Source of the DNA: a virus
Virus record (IMG/VR): IMGVR_UViG_3300006790_000010
Span: 1-32,217 of that record
Length of the DNA: 32,217 bases
Reading direction: 5' to 3' (one strand)
Shown: positions 2,843-29,254 of the stretch, one piece after another
Layout of the letters: every line of letters starts with the position of its first letter
Numbering within the stretch: the first letter of the stretch is position 1
Position numbers and translations under genes: made by a program
Notes under the pieces: generated by a model
The model's input: only the letters and a program-made list of their open reading frames with translations
Databases searched by the model: none
Told to the model about the DNA's origin: nothing

Positions 2843-4591
2843 TTATCCTTTATAGTTTGGGTGGTGTCCGTTGTTTGGCATATCTTTAGGAGCTATCTTA
2901 CTCTGCGCTCTACCTCTAGGTCTTGGCATGTAACTTTGAGGAATACTAGCAACTTTCTTAGAGTCGCTTATATCTATGTCCTCTCTATACTGTCCGTTAG
3001 TTTTCTTTTTAAGTCTATATAAGTTCTCTTTCCAATAGTGGCCACAGTTAGGCCCTCCCTTAAATTTAAATAAGTCGTAAGGTTGCCCTTTATGTCCGAA
3101 AGAATCATTAACTCCTAGTCTACTAGCTTGGTCTATATCCTCTAGTCTGTATACTGTTCCTACTCTTTGCATCATTTGAGCGCAAAAGTCCCTAGACTCG
3201 CCACTTGAATACTTTTGAGCATACTCATAACGAACTTTATAAAAAGACTTATCTAATATGCTAAAGCCTGAGGGGTTACTATTAATAACGTCGCTTAACT
3301 TTTGTAAAAAGTTTTTTTTCTCTTTTATAAGCCTATTAGCCCACGTTTCTATATCTTCGTTGTCTTCTGAATATTCTCTGCTGTCTACTAACTCCCAGTC
3401 TTCGTCTATAGTCTCGCCTTTTAAAAAGTCAAGCATAGCCTCCCCCTGCTCGTCTGTTATCTTACTTAGTTTCTGTTCAGCTTCTTGCTCCTCTTCTTGT
3501 TCCTCTTGTTCTATCTCTTCTAGTAAGTTTAGTCTTCTAAAGTATAAATCTAAGCTAATATCGTTAAAAGCTAGAATTTTATCTATTCCGTCTAGCATAG
3601 TTTCCTGAAAAGGTTGTATAGTAGCATTATAAAAATAACGTGCTGCTACTTCTATCTCGTCAGCATTTGAGCTAAAGCCTTGATTATCTGTAACTACTCC
3701 TACTAACATAGGGCTTATTACTGTATGTCCAATTAATATTTTTTGCTCAGCTTCTTTACTTAAATACTCGTAGTGTGCTGGAGCGTCATTTAAAGGAATA
3801 TCGTCTACACTTGTTTTGCTTTCTGCGTTATTGTTAAAAGCTACTATTACTTTTTGCCCTCTTGAGCCTGTTAATTTGCTTAGTACTTTTCGGCTTATTT
3901 CGTCTTGCTTTTCTTGGTCAGGTACTCCGTTATTAAAGTTAACTACTTTAGTCCCTGAAAAACCATTTTGAACCTCGTTTATTAAGTACTCGCTTATTTC
4001 CTCTTCTAAGATAGTGTAAGGAATAGCAGCTAAGTAGTCTATCTCTCCGAAATATTTAACTCCTACAGCATACTCTTTAATACAAAGTATTTCTATTTTC
4101 TCTTTAGAAGTAGCAAAAGCAGGATATCTTACAGGAGTATATTTTCTTGTTTCCTCCCAGTTATCACAGTAATAATAGCCCTCTATATCGCCCTCTTCGT
4201 TACATTTCTCAGGTCTAATTAAGTTAGTAGGAATATGATAAGCTTTAATTACTTTAGTATGCTTTTCGTCATAGTGTACTTGAAAATGTCCAGCTCCTAG
4301 CATTTTTAGCTCCTTGATAACTTTTCGTAAGTCATCAGCACTAAATATAGACTTCATAGCAGCATACTGAGAAGGCTTTCTACTAGCGTCTAAAGCATGA
4401 AGCCCACGCCCATAAATTAAACGAGATACGTTGTTTATTACTGCGCTGTTAGTAGTAGAATTTCTAGAACGCTCTATTAAAAAGTCGTAATAGTTGTTAT
4501 CTTCTCCGTATTCGACCCAGCTGTATCTAGTGTCCTCTATTATCTCAGGCTTTTCATAAGCCGCGAGGTTAAGTATTTTTATATCACTCAT
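2843..4591 (-). CDS. Portal protein with C-terminal extra domain
   Basis: A 582-aa portal-type protein: an N-terminal segment with SWVEYGEDNNYYDFLI, a helix-rich wing, and an ILIGHTVISPMLVGV / QGFSSNADEIE region around residues 285-313 that is characteristic of Bacteroidetes phage portals. A glutamate-rich stretch (about 358-373) leads into a second domain of about 90 residues (about 440-530) with C470, a YRLEDI motif and a GGPNCGHYWKENLYRLK segment (C516, H518). That part resembles the MuF-like minor head domain seen fused to some portals. The portal forms the 12-fold DNA gate at the capsid vertex. The gene starts 8 bp inside the 109-aa gene before it. Confidence 0.85.
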   Translation of the reverse strand: MSDIKILNLAAYEKPEIIEDTRYSWVEYGEDNNYYDFLIERSRNSTTNSAVINNVSRLIYGRGLHALDASRKPSQYAAMKSIFSADDLRKVIKELKMLGAGHFQVHYDEKHTKVIKAYHIPTNLIRPEKCNEEGDIEGYYYCDNWEETRKYTPVRYPAFATSKEKIEILCIKEYAVGVKYFGEIDYLAAIPYTILEEEISEYLINEVQNGFSGTKVVNFNNGVPDQEKQDEISRKVLSKLTGSRGQKVIVAFNNNAESKTSVDDIPLNDAPAHYEYLSKEAEQKILIGHTVISPMLVGVVTDNQGFSSNADEIEVAARYFYNATIQPFQETMLDGIDKILAFNDISLDLYFRRLNLLEEIEQEEQEEEQEAEQKLSKITDEQGEAMLDFLKGETIDEDWELVDSREYSEDNEDIETWANRLIKEKKNFLQKLSDVINSNPSGFSILDKSFYKVRYEYAQKYSSGESRDFCAQMMQRVGTVYRLEDIDQASRLGVNDSFGHKGQPYDLFKFKGGPNCGHYWKENLYRLKKKTNGQYREDIDISDSKKVASIPQSYMPRPRGRAQSKIAPKDMPNNGHHPNYKG

Positions 4592-9143: not shown

Positions 9144-11548
9144 AGTGTACTTTGTTGTATTTTGTTTCTTTCAAGTGACTGAGCAGTAGTAACGTCTCCA
9201 GCTACTACATAAGCTTGTAAAGGTTGCTGTCCTAACGTCTCTGCTAGTTGGTTAGTCCCTGTATTTCCTACTACGTTAAAAGTAGCTGGTGTACTTACAG
9301 CAGTAGGTGGACTTGGAGCAGTAGGAGAAGAAGCACCACCTCCTCCACTACCACTAGCTTGAAACTGTGTAGCAGAAATAGTAGCAATTTGAGCCGCACC
9401 TGTAGCAGCAACTATTCCAGCCTTAATAAAGTTAGCTCCAGTTAACGCATCTTGTGGCACTGCTAACTGAGTTATAATACCTTGTGCTGTACTTATTATT
9501 GCTTGTCCTATACTTATTGCCTTATTAATATTAAAAGCTCTTCTTTGTGCCTCTTCACTTTCGCCAGCAAAAGCTTTTACTAAATCTGAAATAGCTGTTA
9601 AACTTTGTTGTGCTAGTTCTATTTTAGCATTTCTTAAAGCTATCTCTCTTTGTATTTCTGCTTCGGCTAGTTCTTTTTTTACTTTATCTGTCTCTATAGC
9701 TGCGTCTCTTATAGTCTCCTCTTTTGCAAGTTCAGCGTCTAAATAAGATTCTATCTCGTCTATCGTTTCTTTTGCTCTTTGTTTCTCCGCTTCTCTTTCT
9801 GCTTTCTCTTCAGCCGCCCATTCTTTTTCCCTTTGTGCAAAGTCTTCGTCTATTTTTCTTAAACGCTTATACTCTTCCATTCGAGCTAAGAACTCAGCTA
9901 GTGCTTTATCTCTAGCTTCCTTAATAGCAGCTTGTTTGTCTTTCTCGTCTTTTACTTCAAAATCGTTAGCGTCCTCTATTGCTTCAGCCTGAGCAGTTAA
10001 ACTCTGTATTAATTCAGCGTATCTATTTTGATTCTCTTCTCTTTCTTGTTCTGTTCTTACTTTTGCGTTTTTTGCTACTTCGTTATTTATTTCCTTAGCA
10101 GACTCTGAAAAGTCAAGTAAACCAGCTGTAAAGTAATCTCCTACAGCTCCAGCAGAACGAAGTAAGAAGGCATTTGTTTTCTCTAATACGTCTCTTTGGT
10201 CTTTGTCTTGTTGTAATAAGGCTTCGCTTGCTTCTTTAGCAGCTAAAGAAATTATCTCTTGCGCTTGTGCTCTAAGCATAGCAGACTTAACATAAGCGTC
10301 TGACTTATCTATAAAAGTTTGTTCTGCCTCTTCTAGTGTCTCAGCTTCTCCAATAGTTTTGCCTATAGTTTCGTTGTATTCTTTTAAAGCTTCCTCTTTA
10401 CTTATTACTCCATCTTTAGCTAAAGCAAAAGTATTTTTCATTTTAGTAACAGTCTCTATAGCTCCTTTGGCTGCTTCCTTAGCCTTGTCTATAGTGCTAT
10501 TAAGTATTTCTTGCTCTTTACTAACTCCTGTTATCATTCGCTTGAGCTTGTCGAAGTTAGCTATTAAAGCACCTATACCTATAATAATAGCACCTAGTCC
10601 TAAAGTAACTAAAGCAGCTTTTAATATCCTAACTGCGTTAGTCATTACACTAGTACCAGTCGCTGCTGTTGTGTTAGCCTTTCCGAAAGATTCAGTTTCA
10701 GCAGTTGCCTTAATACTAGCTTCTCCTACTCCAGCTACTCCTGAGGCTTGTCTTTCGGCAGCTACAGCCGACACAGTACTAGTTTCTGCTGTTTCTATAT
10801 TGCTTTCTGAAAATACCTCGCTTTCTGCTGTACTTATTATTGCTTTCTCTCCTACTCCTGAAATAGCTGCTGCTTGTCTCTCTGCTGCTATTGCGCTTAC
10901 TGTCGCTGTATCTCCGAAGAATTTATTAGCTAAAGCAGCAAGCTTAGTCTTAGCCTCAGTTATAACTAGCATAGCTGCGCTCTCTTTTTGAAAAGCTACT
11001 TGTAACTGAGTAATACCACTAAGAGCAGCTTGAGCAGCCTGAAGCTTAACCATAGTTTCTCTTAACTCCTCGCTCTTAACTCCAGCCATACCCATAACTC
11101 CATTAAAAGCAGTAAAGCCAGCTATTACCCCTGTACCTATACCTATAGCACCTTGTAGCCTAAAATTATCGTCAGCTAGTCGCTTAGTTTCGTTTTGTAA
11201 GTCAACCATTTGGTCCTTAAGCTGCGCTGCTCTTTGTAAAGCTTGTCTACCTACTGCGCTTTCTCTACCAGCTTGTAAGGCTATAGTTTGATAAGCTTGT
11301 ATCTGTTTGTTTAAGTCTCTAAAGTTCTTAGGGCTCTTAGCTACTGTAGCATCTAGGTCTTTTAGTTTCTTGTTTACATTGTCCGAACTATTTAATATTT
11401 CATCCATAGCTTGAGCTGGCTTCTTAAGTTGCTTTGCGCTCTCATCTGCAGCTTGCCCTACTTCTCTAAGTTCTTTCTCTGTTTCGTTTAAACTAGCGTT
11501 AGCCTGTGTGCTATCTACGTTTAACTTTATTGTCTTTTCTATTGCCAT
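9140..11548 (-). CDS. Tail tape measure protein
   Basis: An 802-aa protein with the usual tape-measure layout: a helical, Gln/Lys-rich N-terminal coiled coil (about 1-130), a glycine/alanine-rich hydrophobic zone (about 132-155), another hydrophobic segment (about 308-332, ILKAALVTLGLGAIIIGIG), then a very long charged helix (about 520-650) and an Ala/Gly/Pro/Ser-rich C-terminus. It sets tail length and is ejected with the DNA. At roughly 1.5 angstrom per residue, 802 residues would give a tail of about 120 nm, so a siphovirus. It follows the 47-aa gene by coupled overlap. A 42-residue tandem duplication is noted separately. Confidence 0.9.
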   Translation of the reverse strand: MAIEKTIKLNVDSTQANASLNETEKELREVGQAADESAKQLKKPAQAMDEILNSSDNVNKKLKDLDATVAKSPKNFRDLNKQIQAYQTIALQAGRESAVGRQALQRAAQLKDQMVDLQNETKRLADDNFRLQGAIGIGTGVIAGFTAFNGVMGMAGVKSEELRETMVKLQAAQAALSGITQLQVAFQKESAAMLVITEAKTKLAALANKFFGDTATVSAIAAERQAAAISGVGEKAIISTAESEVFSESNIETAETSTVSAVAAERQASGVAGVGEASIKATAETESFGKANTTAATGTSVMTNAVRILKAALVTLGLGAIIIGIGALIANFDKLKRMITGVSKEQEILNSTIDKAKEAAKGAIETVTKMKNTFALAKDGVISKEEALKEYNETIGKTIGEAETLEEAEQTFIDKSDAYVKSAMLRAQAQEIISLAAKEASEALLQQDKDQRDVLEKTNAFLLRSAGAVGDYFTAGLLDFSESAKEINNEVAKNAKVRTEQEREENQNRYAELIQSLTAQAEAIEDANDFEVKDEKDKQAAIKEARDKALAEFLARMEEYKRLRKIDEDFAQREKEWAAEEKAEREAEKQRAKETIDEIESYLDAELAKEETIRDAAIETDKVKKELAEAEIQREIALRNAKIELAQQSLTAISDLVKAFAGESEEAQRRAFNINKAISIGQAIISTAQGIITQLAVPQDALTGANFIKAGIVAATGAAQIATISATQFQASGSGGGGASSPTAPSPPTAVSTPATFNVVGNTGTNQLAETLGQQPLQAYVVAGDVTTAQSLERNKIQQSTL
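10652..10903 (-). repeat. 42-codon tandem duplication in the tape measure gene
   Basis: Residues 216-257 and 258-299 of the tape measure are two diverged copies of one unit. Both begin TVSA[IV]AAERQA and continue with G[VA]GE and TAE.E.F. The DNA copies have diverged at many silent positions, so the duplication is not recent. Such units can change tail length in steps. Confidence 0.8.
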
Positions 11549-24874: not shown

Positions 24875-25891
24875 TTAAAAAAGTTTTAAATCTTCATATT
24901 CAGAAAATTTTCTTTTTTTAGCAAGTTTCAAGTTTTCAATAGCTTGATTATAATAACTATCTTTTAACTCTATACCAATAGCTTTACGTCCTAAAGATAC
25001 TGGACTATAAACCTCACTACCTACACCCATAAACGGAGTTAAAACAACTTCACTCTCGTTAGTGTACATTTCTACTATTCTATCAATTACGTCTAATTGC
25101 AAGGGGTGTACGTGTTTCTCATCGTCTTCTGTTTTACTTTCTCGATATGGTAAAACATTGTCTATACGAACGTCATCCCATACAGCAGAGGCGTAACGCT
25201 GCCAAATATAATGACTTAATTTATTGCTTTTAGGGTCTTCATGGTATTTATACTTTGAGTTCAAATGCTCCCAAAGTTGCTCCTCGTTAAATCCGTCGTT
25301 AGTTGCATTATTCCACGCTTGTAAAATGTTAGGTAAAACTGGTGTAGCTCCGTGGTATCTTTTTAGCCCTTGAGGGTGTATTACTGGTACTTCGTTTTCG
25401 TCTTTCTTTGTAAATATTAGCATATAGTCAGGCATAGCTGTAAAACATTTAGTCATATCTTCAACTACAAACTTATGCATTAAACTTTGTACCATTGTAC
25501 GCATACGAACTTTTAACGGTTCTTTCCATATGGTTATACGGTTTCTATACTCAAAACCATGCTTTTCATGTAGTCTAATAATCTCGTGAGGAAAGTCCCA
25601 AAGGCGCGAAGTATTATCAAATACATCCGTACAATGTACAGCGTTTATACGCCCTTTCTTTGTTACCCTAGACATTTGCTCGATTAAAAAATCGTATTGC
25701 TCTAAAAATTCTTCCTTACTTTCGCAGTTGCTAAAATCGTTAGGACTACTTGAGTAGTTGTATAAACCCGCAAAAGGAGGAGAATAAACCGATAAATCAA
25801 TACTCTCATCTTTAAGCGTTGGTAATACGTGCATACAATCTCCGTTATAAATTGCATAATCATCTGTTAAAACTTGTTCTTTTACTTTCAT
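24875..25891 (-). CDS. N4-cytosine or N6-adenine DNA methyltransferase
   Basis: A 338-aa N6_N4_Mtase family enzyme. Motif IV is SPPF (37-40, in LSVYSPPFAGLYNY) at the N-terminus, and the SAM-binding motif I is TPFMGVGSE near residues 285-293, so the permuted order is beta-class-like. An S-P-P start is more frequent in N4-cytosine enzymes, but adenine-specific members exist. It has a short TRD-like central region. It directly follows the SNF2-type helicase gene with one base between. No partner nuclease is encoded, so it most likely protects phage DNA from host restriction. Confidence 0.85.
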   Translation of the reverse strand: MKVKEQVLTDDYAIYNGDCMHVLPTLKDESIDLSVYSPPFAGLYNYSSSPNDFSNCESKEEFLEQYDFLIEQMSRVTKKGRINAVHCTDVFDNTSRLWDFPHEIIRLHEKHGFEYRNRITIWKEPLKVRMRTMVQSLMHKFVVEDMTKCFTAMPDYMLIFTKKDENEVPVIHPQGLKRYHGATPVLPNILQAWNNATNDGFNEEQLWEHLNSKYKYHEDPKSNKLSHYIWQRYASAVWDDVRIDNVLPYRESKTEDDEKHVHPLQLDVIDRIVEMYTNESEVVLTPFMGVGSEVYSPVSLGRKAIGIELKDSYYNQAIENLKLAKKRKFSEYEDLKLF

Positions 25892-25892
25892 T

Positions 25893-27263
25893 TTATATAA
25901 ATTTTGGTGTTTCTATTTGTTTATTAAATTCTTTTGTTTTATGAGTAAAGTCTGCGTTTACATTTTCTACTAAATTTTGATATAGCTGTATTGCTTTCTC
26001 GGTCTTTTGTTGTAGTGCTTCTATTACTCTAGTTTGACCGTCAGAAATAACCATATCAATAGTTACGTCTTGTTTCTGCCCAAATCTCCAAAAACGTCTA
26101 ATTGCTTGGTAATATTGTTCGTAACTCCATGTAGGAAAAAATACAGAGTGGTTACAATGTTGCCAGTTTAACCCCATACCAGTCATTTTAGCCTTGGTTA
26201 TTAGTCGCGTTATTTCTCCTTTCGCAAATGATACTAAAATCTCTTCTTTACGGTCAACTGACATACTGCCTAATATTTCTACAGATTCACTATCTAAAGA
26301 CTTTATTAATGCGCTTTCCTCGTTTCTATTAACCCAATAAACAGAAGTATTACCTTTTGCTAGTTGAATAGCCTTTTCGCATCTTTCTTTTATTGTGCTT
26401 TTCTCTTCGTGCTTTATTTCATTAAAGTTCTTTGCGACTGGTGTAAACATTTGTATTTGACCGTCAACATCTATTAACGAATTGTTTTTAACGACGTGTT
26501 TATTTACTATGAGTTCAGGAAGTATGTACCTCGTGTCATCAAAACCTAAGTCCGACGGCTTTTTAACCATTATCGACCATTGATTAACCCATGCAAAAAA
26601 ATCTTTTTCAGCGTGTGGTTTAAGATAGTACTTTTCCCCTATGTTACGAGCGTTGCTGTCGGAGGTGTTATTATTGTTTTTAAAAAACTTACTAAGCATA
26701 TCCATATAACCCATGTAACCGAGTGCCTCGCTACTTGTGCCTAGTTCTATAAAATCGTTAGGGCTTGGAGTTGCTGTAGATAAATAACGGTATTTTACTT
26801 TTTTAATAAAGCTAGTAATTTGATTTTTAATTTTACCGTCAAAGTTTTTTAAAATACTACTTTCGTCTAAAATAACCCCCTCAAAGTCTTCAGGCTTTAA
26901 ATATTGTAATCTTTCATAATTACAAATAACTATTTTTTTAGTATGCTTTCCGTCTTTTGTCTGTTCGATATCGTCGGTAATATTCCTATCGATAGCTTCT
27001 TTTACAAACTGAAAACCAACCGCTAAAGGAGTTAATATTAATACTCTGCCATTTGTTTCATTTACAATATTTACAGCTATAGATAACTGTATTAAAGTTT
27101 TACCTAGTCCAGTATCAGCAAATACTGCCATTCTACCCTTTCTAACTGCTTTCTCTATTATTGCTTTTTGAAAGTCAAAAGCACAATCAGGAAAGTAATT
27201 AGGTTCAAAACCAAACTCTCCTATAAGGTGTTTTTTTTGGTTTAAAAATTGTTCATAGTTCAT
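25893..27263 (-). CDS. SNF2/DEAD-like superfamily 2 helicase
   Basis: A 456-aa helicase with a Q-like CAFDFQ (28-32), Walker A ADTGLGKT (49-56), motif II DESS (133-136) in place of the usual DEAH/DEAD, motif III STATPSPND (162-170) and motif VI QYYQAIRRFWRFGQ (about 385-398). The length is typical of compact phage SNF2-type helicases. It is encoded directly before the N4/N6 methyltransferase; such helicase/methyltransferase pairs recur in phages. It may remodel DNA for replication or assist the methyltransferase. It is preceded by the structured RNA at 27284-27378. Confidence 0.85.
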   Translation of the reverse strand: MNYEQFLNQKKHLIGEFGFEPNYFPDCAFDFQKAIIEKAVRKGRMAVFADTGLGKTLIQLSIAVNIVNETNGRVLILTPLAVGFQFVKEAIDRNITDDIEQTKDGKHTKKIVICNYERLQYLKPEDFEGVILDESSILKNFDGKIKNQITSFIKKVKYRYLSTATPSPNDFIELGTSSEALGYMGYMDMLSKFFKNNNNTSDSNARNIGEKYYLKPHAEKDFFAWVNQWSIMVKKPSDLGFDDTRYILPELIVNKHVVKNNSLIDVDGQIQMFTPVAKNFNEIKHEEKSTIKERCEKAIQLAKGNTSVYWVNRNEESALIKSLDSESVEILGSMSVDRKEEILVSFAKGEITRLITKAKMTGMGLNWQHCNHSVFFPTWSYEQYYQAIRRFWRFGQKQDVTIDMVISDGQTRVIEALQQKTEKAIQLYQNLVENVNADFTHKTKEFNKQIETPKFI

Positions 27264-27283: not shown

Positions 27284-27340
27284 AAAAAAAAACCTCCGTA
27301 AATCCTTGAGGCTCTCACTTCTCAATTCATTACAGAGGTT
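27284..27340 (-). terminator. Terminator hairpin before the helicase gene
   Basis: The 11-bp stem described for the RNA (27340-27330 with 27301-27291, one G-T pair) is followed by seven further T after the two that close the stem. It lies 20 bases before the helicase ATG. If active it either ends a short RNA or acts as an attenuator for the helicase and methyltransferase genes. Confidence 0.75.
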
Positions 27341-27378
27341 AATTAAATCTCTTTGTCGCTTATTGTGAGAGCGCAACT
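27284..27378 (-). ncRNA. Kissing-loop RNA candidate ending in a terminator
   Basis: The gap 27264-27394 holds a compact RNA signal on the minus strand, read 27378 to 27284. Hairpin 1: GTTGC (27377-27373) with GCGAC (27359-27355), loop starting GCTCTCAC. Hairpin 2: an 11-bp stem AACCTCTGTAA (27340-27330) with TTACGGAGGTT (27301-27291), with an inner TTGAG/CTCAA stem and a 10-base loop AAGTGAGAGC. The two loops are complementary over 8 bases (GCTCTCAC with GTGAGAGC), so they can kiss. Hairpin 2 is followed by a T-run and acts as a terminator. A TATATTTG box stands just upstream. It may be an independent RNA of about 95 nt or a regulatory leader of the helicase gene. Confidence 0.7.
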
Positions 27379-27382
27379 TTTA

Positions 27383-27390
27383 CAAATATA
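27383..27390 (-). promoter_or_regulatory. Predicted -7 box TATATTTG before the kissing-loop RNA
   Basis: A perfect TAnnTTTG match on the minus strand, five bases after the stop of the 66-aa gene. Transcription would start near 27378, immediately before hairpin 1. The -33 region has ATGG where TTTG is expected at 19-bp spacing, so only the -7 box is good. Confidence 0.5.
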
Positions 27391-27394
27391 ATAC

Positions 27395-27595
27395 TTAATT
27401 TTTATTTTTCCATTTTCTATAAGCTTCTGCGCTTCTTTTTATTTCTTGTTTATTTACGTCAGATAAACGAAAATATCCTTTTAATACTTGTCTAGCCCAG
27501 TATCCTACGTCTATAACGTCTAACTCAGGTAGTTTAACTCTAGCAGTATCTTTGCTTATCTCTTTTAAATAGTTTGTTAAAGTTTGTCTAGCCAT
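27395..27595 (-). CDS. Hypothetical protein, 66 aa
   Basis: A basic, helical 66-aa protein (MARQTLTNYLKEISKDTARVKLPE...) ending in RSAEAYRKWKNKN. It overlaps the cytosine-C5 methyltransferase gene by 19 bp and is the last gene before the kissing-loop RNA. The basic C-terminus may bind nucleic acid. No family is recognised. Confidence 0.6.
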   Translation of the reverse strand: MARQTLTNYLKEISKDTARVKLPELDVIDVGYWARQVLKGYFRLSDVNKQEIKRSAEAYRKWKNKN

Positions 27596-28638
27596 TGTTC
27601 ATATATTTTAGTTGCTATTTGAGCAGTCATTATAGGGGGAACGCTCATACCTATTAAGTATTTCGGTTTTAATTTTAAAAAGTTGTAGTCTAGTGGATAT
27701 GTACCTGCTTTGCAATATTCACTATCTGTTAATATTCGAGGTGTTTTATAATCATATAAATTACTTCCATTACTATTAGCTATAATTGTCGGGCATACTT
27801 TATTAGGGTGCATTTTTGAATCACCAAAATAGTGACCTTTAGGGTGGACTGTTCCAAAGTTTTTTCCCATTGAACACATACCCCAAAGCTCTAAAACATT
27901 TTTAGTTAATTTATTATTTAAACTAACATTTTCTCTAATTATTTTAAATAATATATTTTCCTCATTAAATTCTAATTCTAATTTAGGTACTTCTGTAAAC
28001 ATATCTTTTTGGTATAAAAAAGGTTCTGCAAGGTCTTTTCTTAAACAAACAAAAAACACTCTTTCACGTCTTTGAGGTACTCCCATTTTTGAAGCGTCTA
28101 ATAACCAGTGCTGACAATAGTATCCAGCTTCATCAAAAGCATTGTATATTTTTTTAACGTATTCTTTAGCAGCTCCTAAAAGCAAACCTTTTACATTCTC
28201 AGCTACTACTACTTTTGGCTGTAATTCTTTTGCAAGGTCTATGAAGTCAAAAAACAAAGTATCTAAAACTTGTTCTGCTTGTCCTTCCCTAAACTTCTTA
28301 TCTTTTCCCCAATCTTTCTCACGATTTCCCGCCATACTAAAGGATGAACAAGGTGGAGAACCATCCAAGATGTCCAAATTATAGAGTTCTTTAGGTAGGT
28401 CTTTACGATTTTTAAATGTTTGAATTGGCTCAAGGTATGAATATTTTGGATTGTGATTTACTCGATAGGCTTCTATCATTTTTGGGTCTATCTCGTTACA
28501 GCCTAACACGTCAAAACCAGCTAATTTGTACCCCATAGTAGAACCCCCACCACAAGCAAAGCAACTAAAAACAGTTCCTTTGTCTTTTGTAAAATTAGCG
28601 TCTTTTAAAGTCCATTCATAAGGAAATTTATGTTTCAT
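27577..28638 (-). CDS. DNA cytosine-C5 methyltransferase
   Basis: A 353-aa Dcm-type enzyme. Motif I is SCFACGGGSTMGYKLAGF (25-42), motif IV is GSPPCSSFS (93-101, catalytic C97), motif VI is AENVKGLL (146-153), motif VIII is QRRERVFFVC (189-198), and motif IX/X is near the end (LIGMSVPPIM, IATKIYEQWL). It transfers a methyl group to C5 of cytosine. No restriction partner is present, so protection against host restriction is the likely role. The variable target-recognition part (about 215-310) cannot be used to infer the sequence recognised. Confidence 0.93.
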   Translation of the reverse strand: MKHKFPYEWTLKDANFTKDKGTVFSCFACGGGSTMGYKLAGFDVLGCNEIDPKMIEAYRVNHNPKYSYLEPIQTFKNRKDLPKELYNLDILDGSPPCSSFSMAGNREKDWGKDKKFREGQAEQVLDTLFFDFIDLAKELQPKVVVAENVKGLLLGAAKEYVKKIYNAFDEAGYYCQHWLLDASKMGVPQRRERVFFVCLRKDLAEPFLYQKDMFTEVPKLELEFNEENILFKIIRENVSLNNKLTKNVLELWGMCSMGKNFGTVHPKGHYFGDSKMHPNKVCPTIIANSNGSNLYDYKTPRILTDSEYCKAGTYPLDYNFLKLKPKYLIGMSVPPIMTAQIATKIYEQWLDKL

Positions 28639-28925
28639 AGTTCTTTTAAATCGTTTATAATTAAATTAAATATGTACTCGTATTCCTTTTTACTTTCTTT
28701 TTTTAAGTTCTCGTATTTCTCTTTTAAATAGGCTATCCTACCTGGTAAGTAACTTTCTTTAGCGGAGCTTTCAATATCTTCAAATAAAACTTTAATTTGT
28801 TCTCCGTTCATTAATTGTACTATGTAACCTATATGAGTTTTCCAGTCGCTGTAATAGTGAGCTACTACGTTGCCGTGTCCATGCTTTGTAGTTATTGCTT
28901 CGTTTACTCTTATATACTTTCTCAT
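28635..28925 (-). CDS. Hypothetical protein, 96 aa
   Basis: Two parts: a beta-rich N-terminal half (ITTKHGHGNVVAHYYSDWKTHIGYIVQLMNGEQ) that could be a small SH3-like or barrel fold, and a charged coiled-coil half (LKEKYENLKKESKKEYEYIFN). It overlaps the DnaA-like gene and the methyltransferase gene as 4-bp overlaps. No family is recognised. Confidence 0.65.
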   Translation of the reverse strand: MRKYIRVNEAITTKHGHGNVVAHYYSDWKTHIGYIVQLMNGEQIKVLFEDIESSAKESYLPGRIAYLKEKYENLKKESKKEYEYIFNLIINDLKEL

Positions 28926-29254
28926 TGTCTTATTCTTAATTTTTTTAATTGAAACGAAACAGGCTTACAAAGTATTCTCTTATCTACGTGCACTTCTTTT
29001 GCTAACTCATAAACTCTAAGCAGTTGTTTATTATATCCAGCTATAGCATCGTCAACTTGTTTGCAGGCGTGTATTACGTCTGAGTGGTGTCTATTTAAAA
29101 AGCGTCCTATAGTTGCTATTATGTACCCTTTCTCTCTTAGTAAATACATTGCTACATATCTATAGTAAACTATTTCTCGTTTTCTATTTTTTTTCCTTAA
29201 GTCCTCTAATGTTACAGGAATAGCTTGTAAATATTCTATTATTTCTCTTTCCAT
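28922..29254 (-). CDS. Stand-alone DnaA domain IV-like DNA-binding protein
   Basis: A 110-aa protein that matches only the C-terminal DNA-binding domain of DnaA. Residues 32-67 contain RYVAMYLLREKGYIIATIG and RFLNRHHSDVIHACKQV, which follow the DnaA signature (IG, then an acidic/basic H-S/T-V-I-H-A core), with a loop one residue shorter than in bacterial DnaA. No ATPase domain is present. It may bind DnaA boxes at the phage origin or compete with host DnaA. It lies among the early genes and overlaps the next gene as ATGA. Confidence 0.75.
   Translation of the reverse strand: MEREIIEYLQAIPVTLEDLRKKNRKREIVYYRYVAMYLLREKGYIIATIGRFLNRHHSDVIHACKQVDDAIAGYNKQLLRVYELAKEVHVDKRILCKPVSFQLKKLRIRQ

Follow-up and report, generated by a model that had tools for sequence, protein, structure and literature searches.

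The 32,217-base IMG/VR virus record analyzed here (the window) carries on its minus strand a compact kissing-loop RNA element with its own promoter-like box and a terminator-like hairpin, a description that had been put forward in a first-pass annotation and is supported by our comparison with related loci. As judged from sequence comparison, the kissing-loop structure is essentially certain to be real, and we give a probability of about 0.6 to the reading that the element is a modular cis-acting leader or attenuator, whose fold would set the readthrough of transcription into the downstream genes. A compact, strongly covarying leader with fixed promoter spacing is found in dozens of cultured Flavobacterium phages. 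Little is known about gene regulation in phages of the Bacteroidota, and the element offers a handle on the timing of replication and accessory genes.

Architecture of the element in the window

The box, both hairpins, the T-run and the matching loops of 8 nt were all found where the first-pass annotation had placed them, on the minus strand, to which all element coordinates refer (Table 1). The stem of hairpin 1 is formed by GTTGC (27377-27373) and GCGAC (27359-27355) and encloses a loop consisting of GCTCTCAC followed by AATAA. Hairpin 2 is composed of an outer stem of 11 bp (AACCTCTGTAA/TTACGGAGGTT), a 4x4 internal loop (TGAA/GGAT) that is kept across copies of the window type (type A), and an inner stem of 5 bp (TTGAG/CTCAA) capped by a loop of AA plus GTGAGAGC. 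The two words GCTCTCAC and GTGAGAGC are complementary at all 8 positions. The first two T of the 9-T run close the outer stem of hairpin 2.

Table 1. Position of the element and of the neighboring genes in the window.
Feature	Position	Strand	Remarks
C5 methyltransferase gene	27577-28638	-	upstream of the element
TATATTTG box	27383..27390	-	matches the Bacteroidota sigma-A -7 box TAnnTTTG
Hairpin 1	27355..27377	-	begins at predicted +2; covariation in relatives
Loop 1 word GCTCTCAC	27365..27372	-	5' half of the kissing helix
Linker	27341..27354	-	relatives keep roughly AAAGRNRTTATTA
Hairpin 2	27291..27340	-	outer stem, internal loop, inner stem and loop
Loop 2 word GTGAGAGC	27311..27318	-	3' half of the kissing helix
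Run of 9 T	27284..27292	-	terminator-like, directly 3' of hairpin 2
Helicase gene (DEAD/SNF2-type)	25893..27263	-	downstream of the element
N4/N6 DNA methyltransferase gene	24875..25891	-	directly 3' of the helicase gene

In F. psychrophilum, the TAnnTTTG box is located at positions -12 to -5 (PMC9723704). With this spacing, the predicted +1 is nucleotide 27378, which agrees with the 5' end proposed earlier, and the predicted RNA is 95 nt long. The nested fold alone has an energy of -26.9 kcal/mol compared to a mean of -19.1 kcal/mol for shuffled sequences (z -2.5), and 3 of 200 shuffles folded as well as the element. Since the nested fold beats the shuffles only moderately, the window sequence taken by itself is suggestive without deciding the matter.

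Covariation of the two loops

Using the helicase as query, 80 related viral loci were fetched, and the same layout was recognized in the gap before the helicase gene in L002-L006, L021, L052, L059, and L060. All helices are kept in these relatives and the loops vary jointly; the loop pairs GGGCTCA/TGAGCCC (L006), CTTCTCAC/GTGAGAAG (L021), GGTCTCAC/GTGAGACC (L052), and GCTTCGAC/GTCGAAGC (L059) are all matched. A covariance model (R1) was built from four sequences with the loop-loop pairing omitted; two of the seed rows were padded with neutral N placeholders so that the register was maintained. The model identified additional members, among them the cultured Cellulophaga phage phi18:3 with an E-value of ~5.8e-10, which is rough like all E-values given here because of a shortened calibration, and the loops of this phage (CTTCTGAC/GTCAGAAG) pair at 8 of 8 positions. 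In an alignment of 13 rows (A4), 97.6% of the cells were paired and double changes were observed at 6 of the 8 pairs of the loop-loop helix, while sliding the partners by 1-3 columns left 34-42% of the cells paired. This alignment is not a blind set, since L071 and L076 had first been noticed by means of a kissing-loop descriptor.

In a held-out test, viral contigs, many of them fragments, were scanned with a DNA pattern restricted to the hairpin 2 internal loop (TAATGAA..GGATTTA..TTTT), and the matches were scored with a model (R2) that likewise contained no loop-loop pairing. Among the new members listed, each of the 25 credible ones had a perfect loop-loop complement of 7-9 nt; permuted loops mostly gave 2-4 nt. 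In their loop-loop helix, 7 of the 8 pairs were doubly changed and the paired fraction was 98.5%; 50 double-change cells were counted versus a single cell with one change. Shuffles and slides of this alignment collapsed both the fraction of paired cells and the covariation score.

After two more batches, type A comprised at least 57 credible distinct members with at least 33 different loop words, and the 57 listed all showed a perfect complement of at least 7 nt (8 nt in 44, 7 in 9, 9 in 3, and 10 in 1). As permuted loops mostly reach only 2-5 nt, chance is excluded, in line with the earlier view that such an arrangement would rarely arise by accident. The covariance search that had been suggested as a check thus revealed compensatory changes in both stems as well as in the loop-loop pair. 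The complement usually begins with the loop nucleotide next to the 5' arm of hairpin 1 and extends up to the 3' arm of the inner stem. About 6 nt of loop 1 (usually ANNATA) and 2 nt of loop 2 (AA, AC, or AG) remain unpaired, an asymmetry that would fit stacking of the kissing helix between the two stems.

Only copies supported by a model or a pattern were counted as members. Two model matches, L117 and L275 (E about 0.006-0.02), were dropped as false, their loops being unpaired. A generic kissing-loop descriptor including the promoter box and TTTT gave 55 matches in real and 44 in reversed sequences, and its weaker matches are therefore not claimed. When R2 was applied to 395 Bacteroidota genomes, no copy was found among the 10 candidates scored per genome, a depth too small to serve as evidence of absence, also with regard to prophages.

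A subtype with swapped loops in cultured phages

In a second version of the element (type B), the loops are swapped relative to type A, hairpin 1 having AA-N8 and hairpin 2 N8-A..AC. By inspection, the GGA and GAA strands of the purine-rich internal loop are exchanged as well. A search pattern for hairpin 1 alone yielded at least 61 distinct matches; among those listed, 36 were accompanied by a full 8-nt downstream complement and one by a complement of 7 nt, while nearly all others reached 3-4 nt. With permuted words, a full 8-nt complement was obtained once in 1086 cases. The loop-loop helix of the type B alignment (A8) was 100% paired and contained three doubly changed pairs. Model R3 returned no type A copies and model R2 no type B copies.

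Type B is carried by at least 46 isolate records, and the carriers of the element include cultured Flavobacterium, Cellulophaga, and Tenacibaculum phages. Two type B alleles of one locus are present in the cultured Flavobacterium phages hattifnatt9-1 (GTGAGACG/CGTCTCAC) and snusmum6-1 (GTGGAACG/CGTTCCAC); because close relatives among the isolates offer naturally compensated alleles of this kind, the loop-loop model is readily testable. In hattifnatt9-1, one copy of each type is present. According to the descriptor scan, the NUMOD4 endonuclease gene of this phage may be preceded by another, more strongly diverged copy, which would be its third. In the Tenacibaculum phage Gundel_1, a type A copy precedes an antirepressor gene.

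Units of promoter, hairpin, terminator, and ATG with matched loops of 6-7 nt were also noted in L082 (13317), L065 (5882), L053 (2775), L018 (6276), and L064 (1059). They are unlike types A and B and are possible additional variants, all from a descriptor scan in which false positives are numerous.

Position relative to promoters and genes

A promoter box was located at most 16 nt upstream of the element in 53 of 56 type A and 33 of 34 type B copies. Based on the Flavobacterium spacing (PMC9723704), hairpin 1 begins at predicted +1 to +3 in 43 of 51 type A and 22 of 33 type B copies. At the other end, at least 5 of the 8 nt counted from the start of the U-run are T in every type A copy; the run is short or interrupted in some cases (L021, L085). 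In essentially every copy a start codon on the same strand follows closely 3' of the U-run, at a median distance of 25 nt for type A and 40 nt for type B; in the window, the helicase ATG lies 29 nt past the U-run start. In none of 90 cases did a TAnnTTTG box, the sole promoter motif scanned for, lie between the U-run and the ATG. Transcription of the downstream gene must hence pass through the element, starting either at the promoter of the element or at one further upstream, which is the main argument for a role in cis.

The proteins encoded downstream comprise the helicase, DUF6291/replication-initiation proteins, a DnaD-like loader, a BT4734-type primase, an HTH protein, NUMOD4/HNH endonucleases, an antirepressor, and many small proteins. 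The element behaves as a module. Cassettes with 95-96% identity to the promoter and leader of L006 precede unrelated genes in L118, L123, and L210. L006 and the window, on the other hand, share the locus (89.6% identity over 2.5 kb spanning the element and the helicase gene), yet their loop words differ.

The gene order on the minus strand of the window is C5 DNA methyltransferase, a 66-aa ORF, the element, helicase, and N4/N6 methyltransferase, the last of which is likely to be on the same transcript as the helicase gene. The gene located downstream is that of the helicase. The earlier proposal that the loop-loop contact may control the SNF2 helicase and a methyltransferase is not supported for the C5 methyltransferase, which is located upstream and differs from the N4/N6 enzyme 3' of the helicase.

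Putative function and alternative explanations

In the proposed mechanism, transcription would be expected to start right at hairpin 1, from the TAnnTTTG box at its fixed distance. RNA polymerase would first make hairpin 1. Next would come the apical portion of hairpin 2, and it would kiss hairpin 1 through the 8-bp helix while the 3' arm of the outer stem is still to be transcribed. The kissed fold, or a phage or host factor reading its shape, would then bias the closure of the outer terminator stem; recognition by shape is proposed because the loop sequence is free to vary. The outcome would be either a terminated RNA of ~95 nt or readthrough into the helicase and the following genes. The layout is that of an attenuator, with the outer stem and the U-run forming an intrinsic-terminator-like hairpin between promoter and start codon. 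The short or interrupted U-run of some copies speaks against this reading. A candidate antiterminator, formed by pairing between the linker and hairpin 2, is weak: it scored 8.5 compared to 8.1 in permuted sequences (p 0.02, ignoring relatedness), and several members lack it. A leader peptide was considered and rejected: by eye, the AUG in the conserved UAAUGAA opens no frame common to the members (ATG AAT TGA in the window).

More tentatively, and with odds clearly against it, the element might represent a new class of modular phage attenuators, in which an intramolecular kissing complex read by its shape serves as an antitermination or timing signal for many transcription units. Each copy would have its own matching word pair, two topological versions would exist with the loop types swapped, and recognition would be by a factor of the phage or the host or, as with put, by RNA polymerase itself. 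The element is also a possible RNA control part, as the loop words may differ freely if they are matched.

The first-pass annotation had left the choice between a small RNA and an attenuator, and it is the start codon closely 3' of the U-run that favors a cis-acting leader over a free-standing RNA. A ~95-nt RNA that acts in trans as a riboregulator or protein decoy and precedes genes by coincidence could make use of the promoter box and the terminator-like end, and an attenuated ~95-nt RNA may indeed accumulate. This positional rule, with no TAnnTTTG box before the start codon, nevertheless makes such an RNA improbable, and words that pair within the RNA and vary freely are ill-suited to a conserved trans target. 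The strongest rival of the leader/attenuator reading is instead a stabilizer, given that the extreme 5' end is occupied by hairpin 1, which begins within a few nucleotides of the predicted +1 in most copies. The rigid kissing-loop fold, placed directly before start codons, would protect the mRNA from 5'-dependent decay and insulate translation, and the U-run would be a weak or incidental terminator. However, a U-run would be superfluous in a stabilizer, and the T-rich run directly after a stem of 9-11 bp is retained in every type A copy; we regard this explanation as unlikely, though less so than the trans-acting RNA.

RNAs of the put type are characterized by conserved put stems and by contact with the zinc-binding domain of the RNA polymerase beta' subunit. 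A folded leader might similarly bind the transcribing RNA polymerase and render it resistant to terminators, its own included. In its general layout the element resembles the HK022 putRNA, a lambdoid cis-acting antitermination RNA of ~70 nt, whose two stem-loops lie in a phage leader near an early promoter and whose action needs no dedicated protein (PMC9378689). In contrast to put, hairpin 2 of the element is itself terminator-like, and the text of PMC9378689 contains no mention of a kissing helix; the probability of a put-like action is small. Least credible of all is a feature acting at the DNA level, such as an inverted repeat for recombination or protein binding, with no role as RNA. The words are inverted repeats and the cassettes appear to have moved between genes, but stems 1 and 3 tolerate G-U pairs as read on the element strand, the element keeps a fixed position downstream of the promoter, and the U-run is present on one strand only.

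Relation to known RNAs

The element apparently is an RNA leader or switch undescribed so far. No Rfam 15 family reached the gathering threshold, neither for the window nor for 12 loci with type A copies, in keeping with the earlier remark that it was not recognized as a known RNA family. Subthreshold Rfam matches for single members were mutually inconsistent. One of them, the S15-Flavobacteria ribosomal leader (RF03161), matched one type B copy across the TATATTTG promoter and a hairpin with 25.3 bits compared to a gathering score of 46.5. It is a single hairpin with no kissing partner, and the copy is not located before rpsO; the match was judged to be due to the promoter box and a generic hairpin, and a relationship was rejected. 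No description of the element was found in the literature searched, the coverage of which was incomplete and included one catalogue of predicted RNAs by its main text.

Like attenuators and riboswitch-type leaders, the element combines a promoter, a folded leader, a terminator-like hairpin with U-run, and a gene start directly thereafter. Unlike in these, the folded part is a kissing-loop complex, and one design is used before many unrelated phage genes. The kissing of ColE1 RNA I and RNA II with Rop is intermolecular, and a protein can there recognize a loop-loop helix by its shape. The element shares with this pair a loop-loop helix of 7-8 bp whose sequence is variable if matched; in contrast to ColE1, the kissing occurs within one RNA and in a phage leader. 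Membership in Rfam families, in HK022 put, or in the ColE1 type is not claimed.

Additional observations at the loci

In the window, positions 28922-29254 encode a small protein of 110 aa that consists mostly of a DnaA C-terminal DNA-binding domain, and similar genes are annotated in hattifnatt9-1, snusmum6-1, tooticki6-1, and phi18:3. Small proteins of ~70 aa (MAKFELKF...LDKSTAI, MANVKL...GTEKSET) form a recurring family and are often encoded 3' of type B copies and of some of type A, for example in L350, L405, L353, L122, and L191, and some were assigned to PHROG 33177. Before ~70-aa proteins, another small hairpin, whose loop is conserved as approximately GGTATCTTAAAACC, lies between the U-run and the ATG. 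It was noted at the type B loci L350, L353, L355, L368, L373, L418, and L423 and also in L085 near 3040-3050 on the minus strand, and its stem seems to covary (CGG/CCG, AGG/CCT, CCG/CGG). In L082 (MN812207.1; region 9369-9477), the GenBank start of the helicase gp034 (9441) falls within the 3' arm of hairpin 2. As relatives and layout point to the ATG at 9477 (MTDYEKFL...), this start is probably annotated too far upstream.
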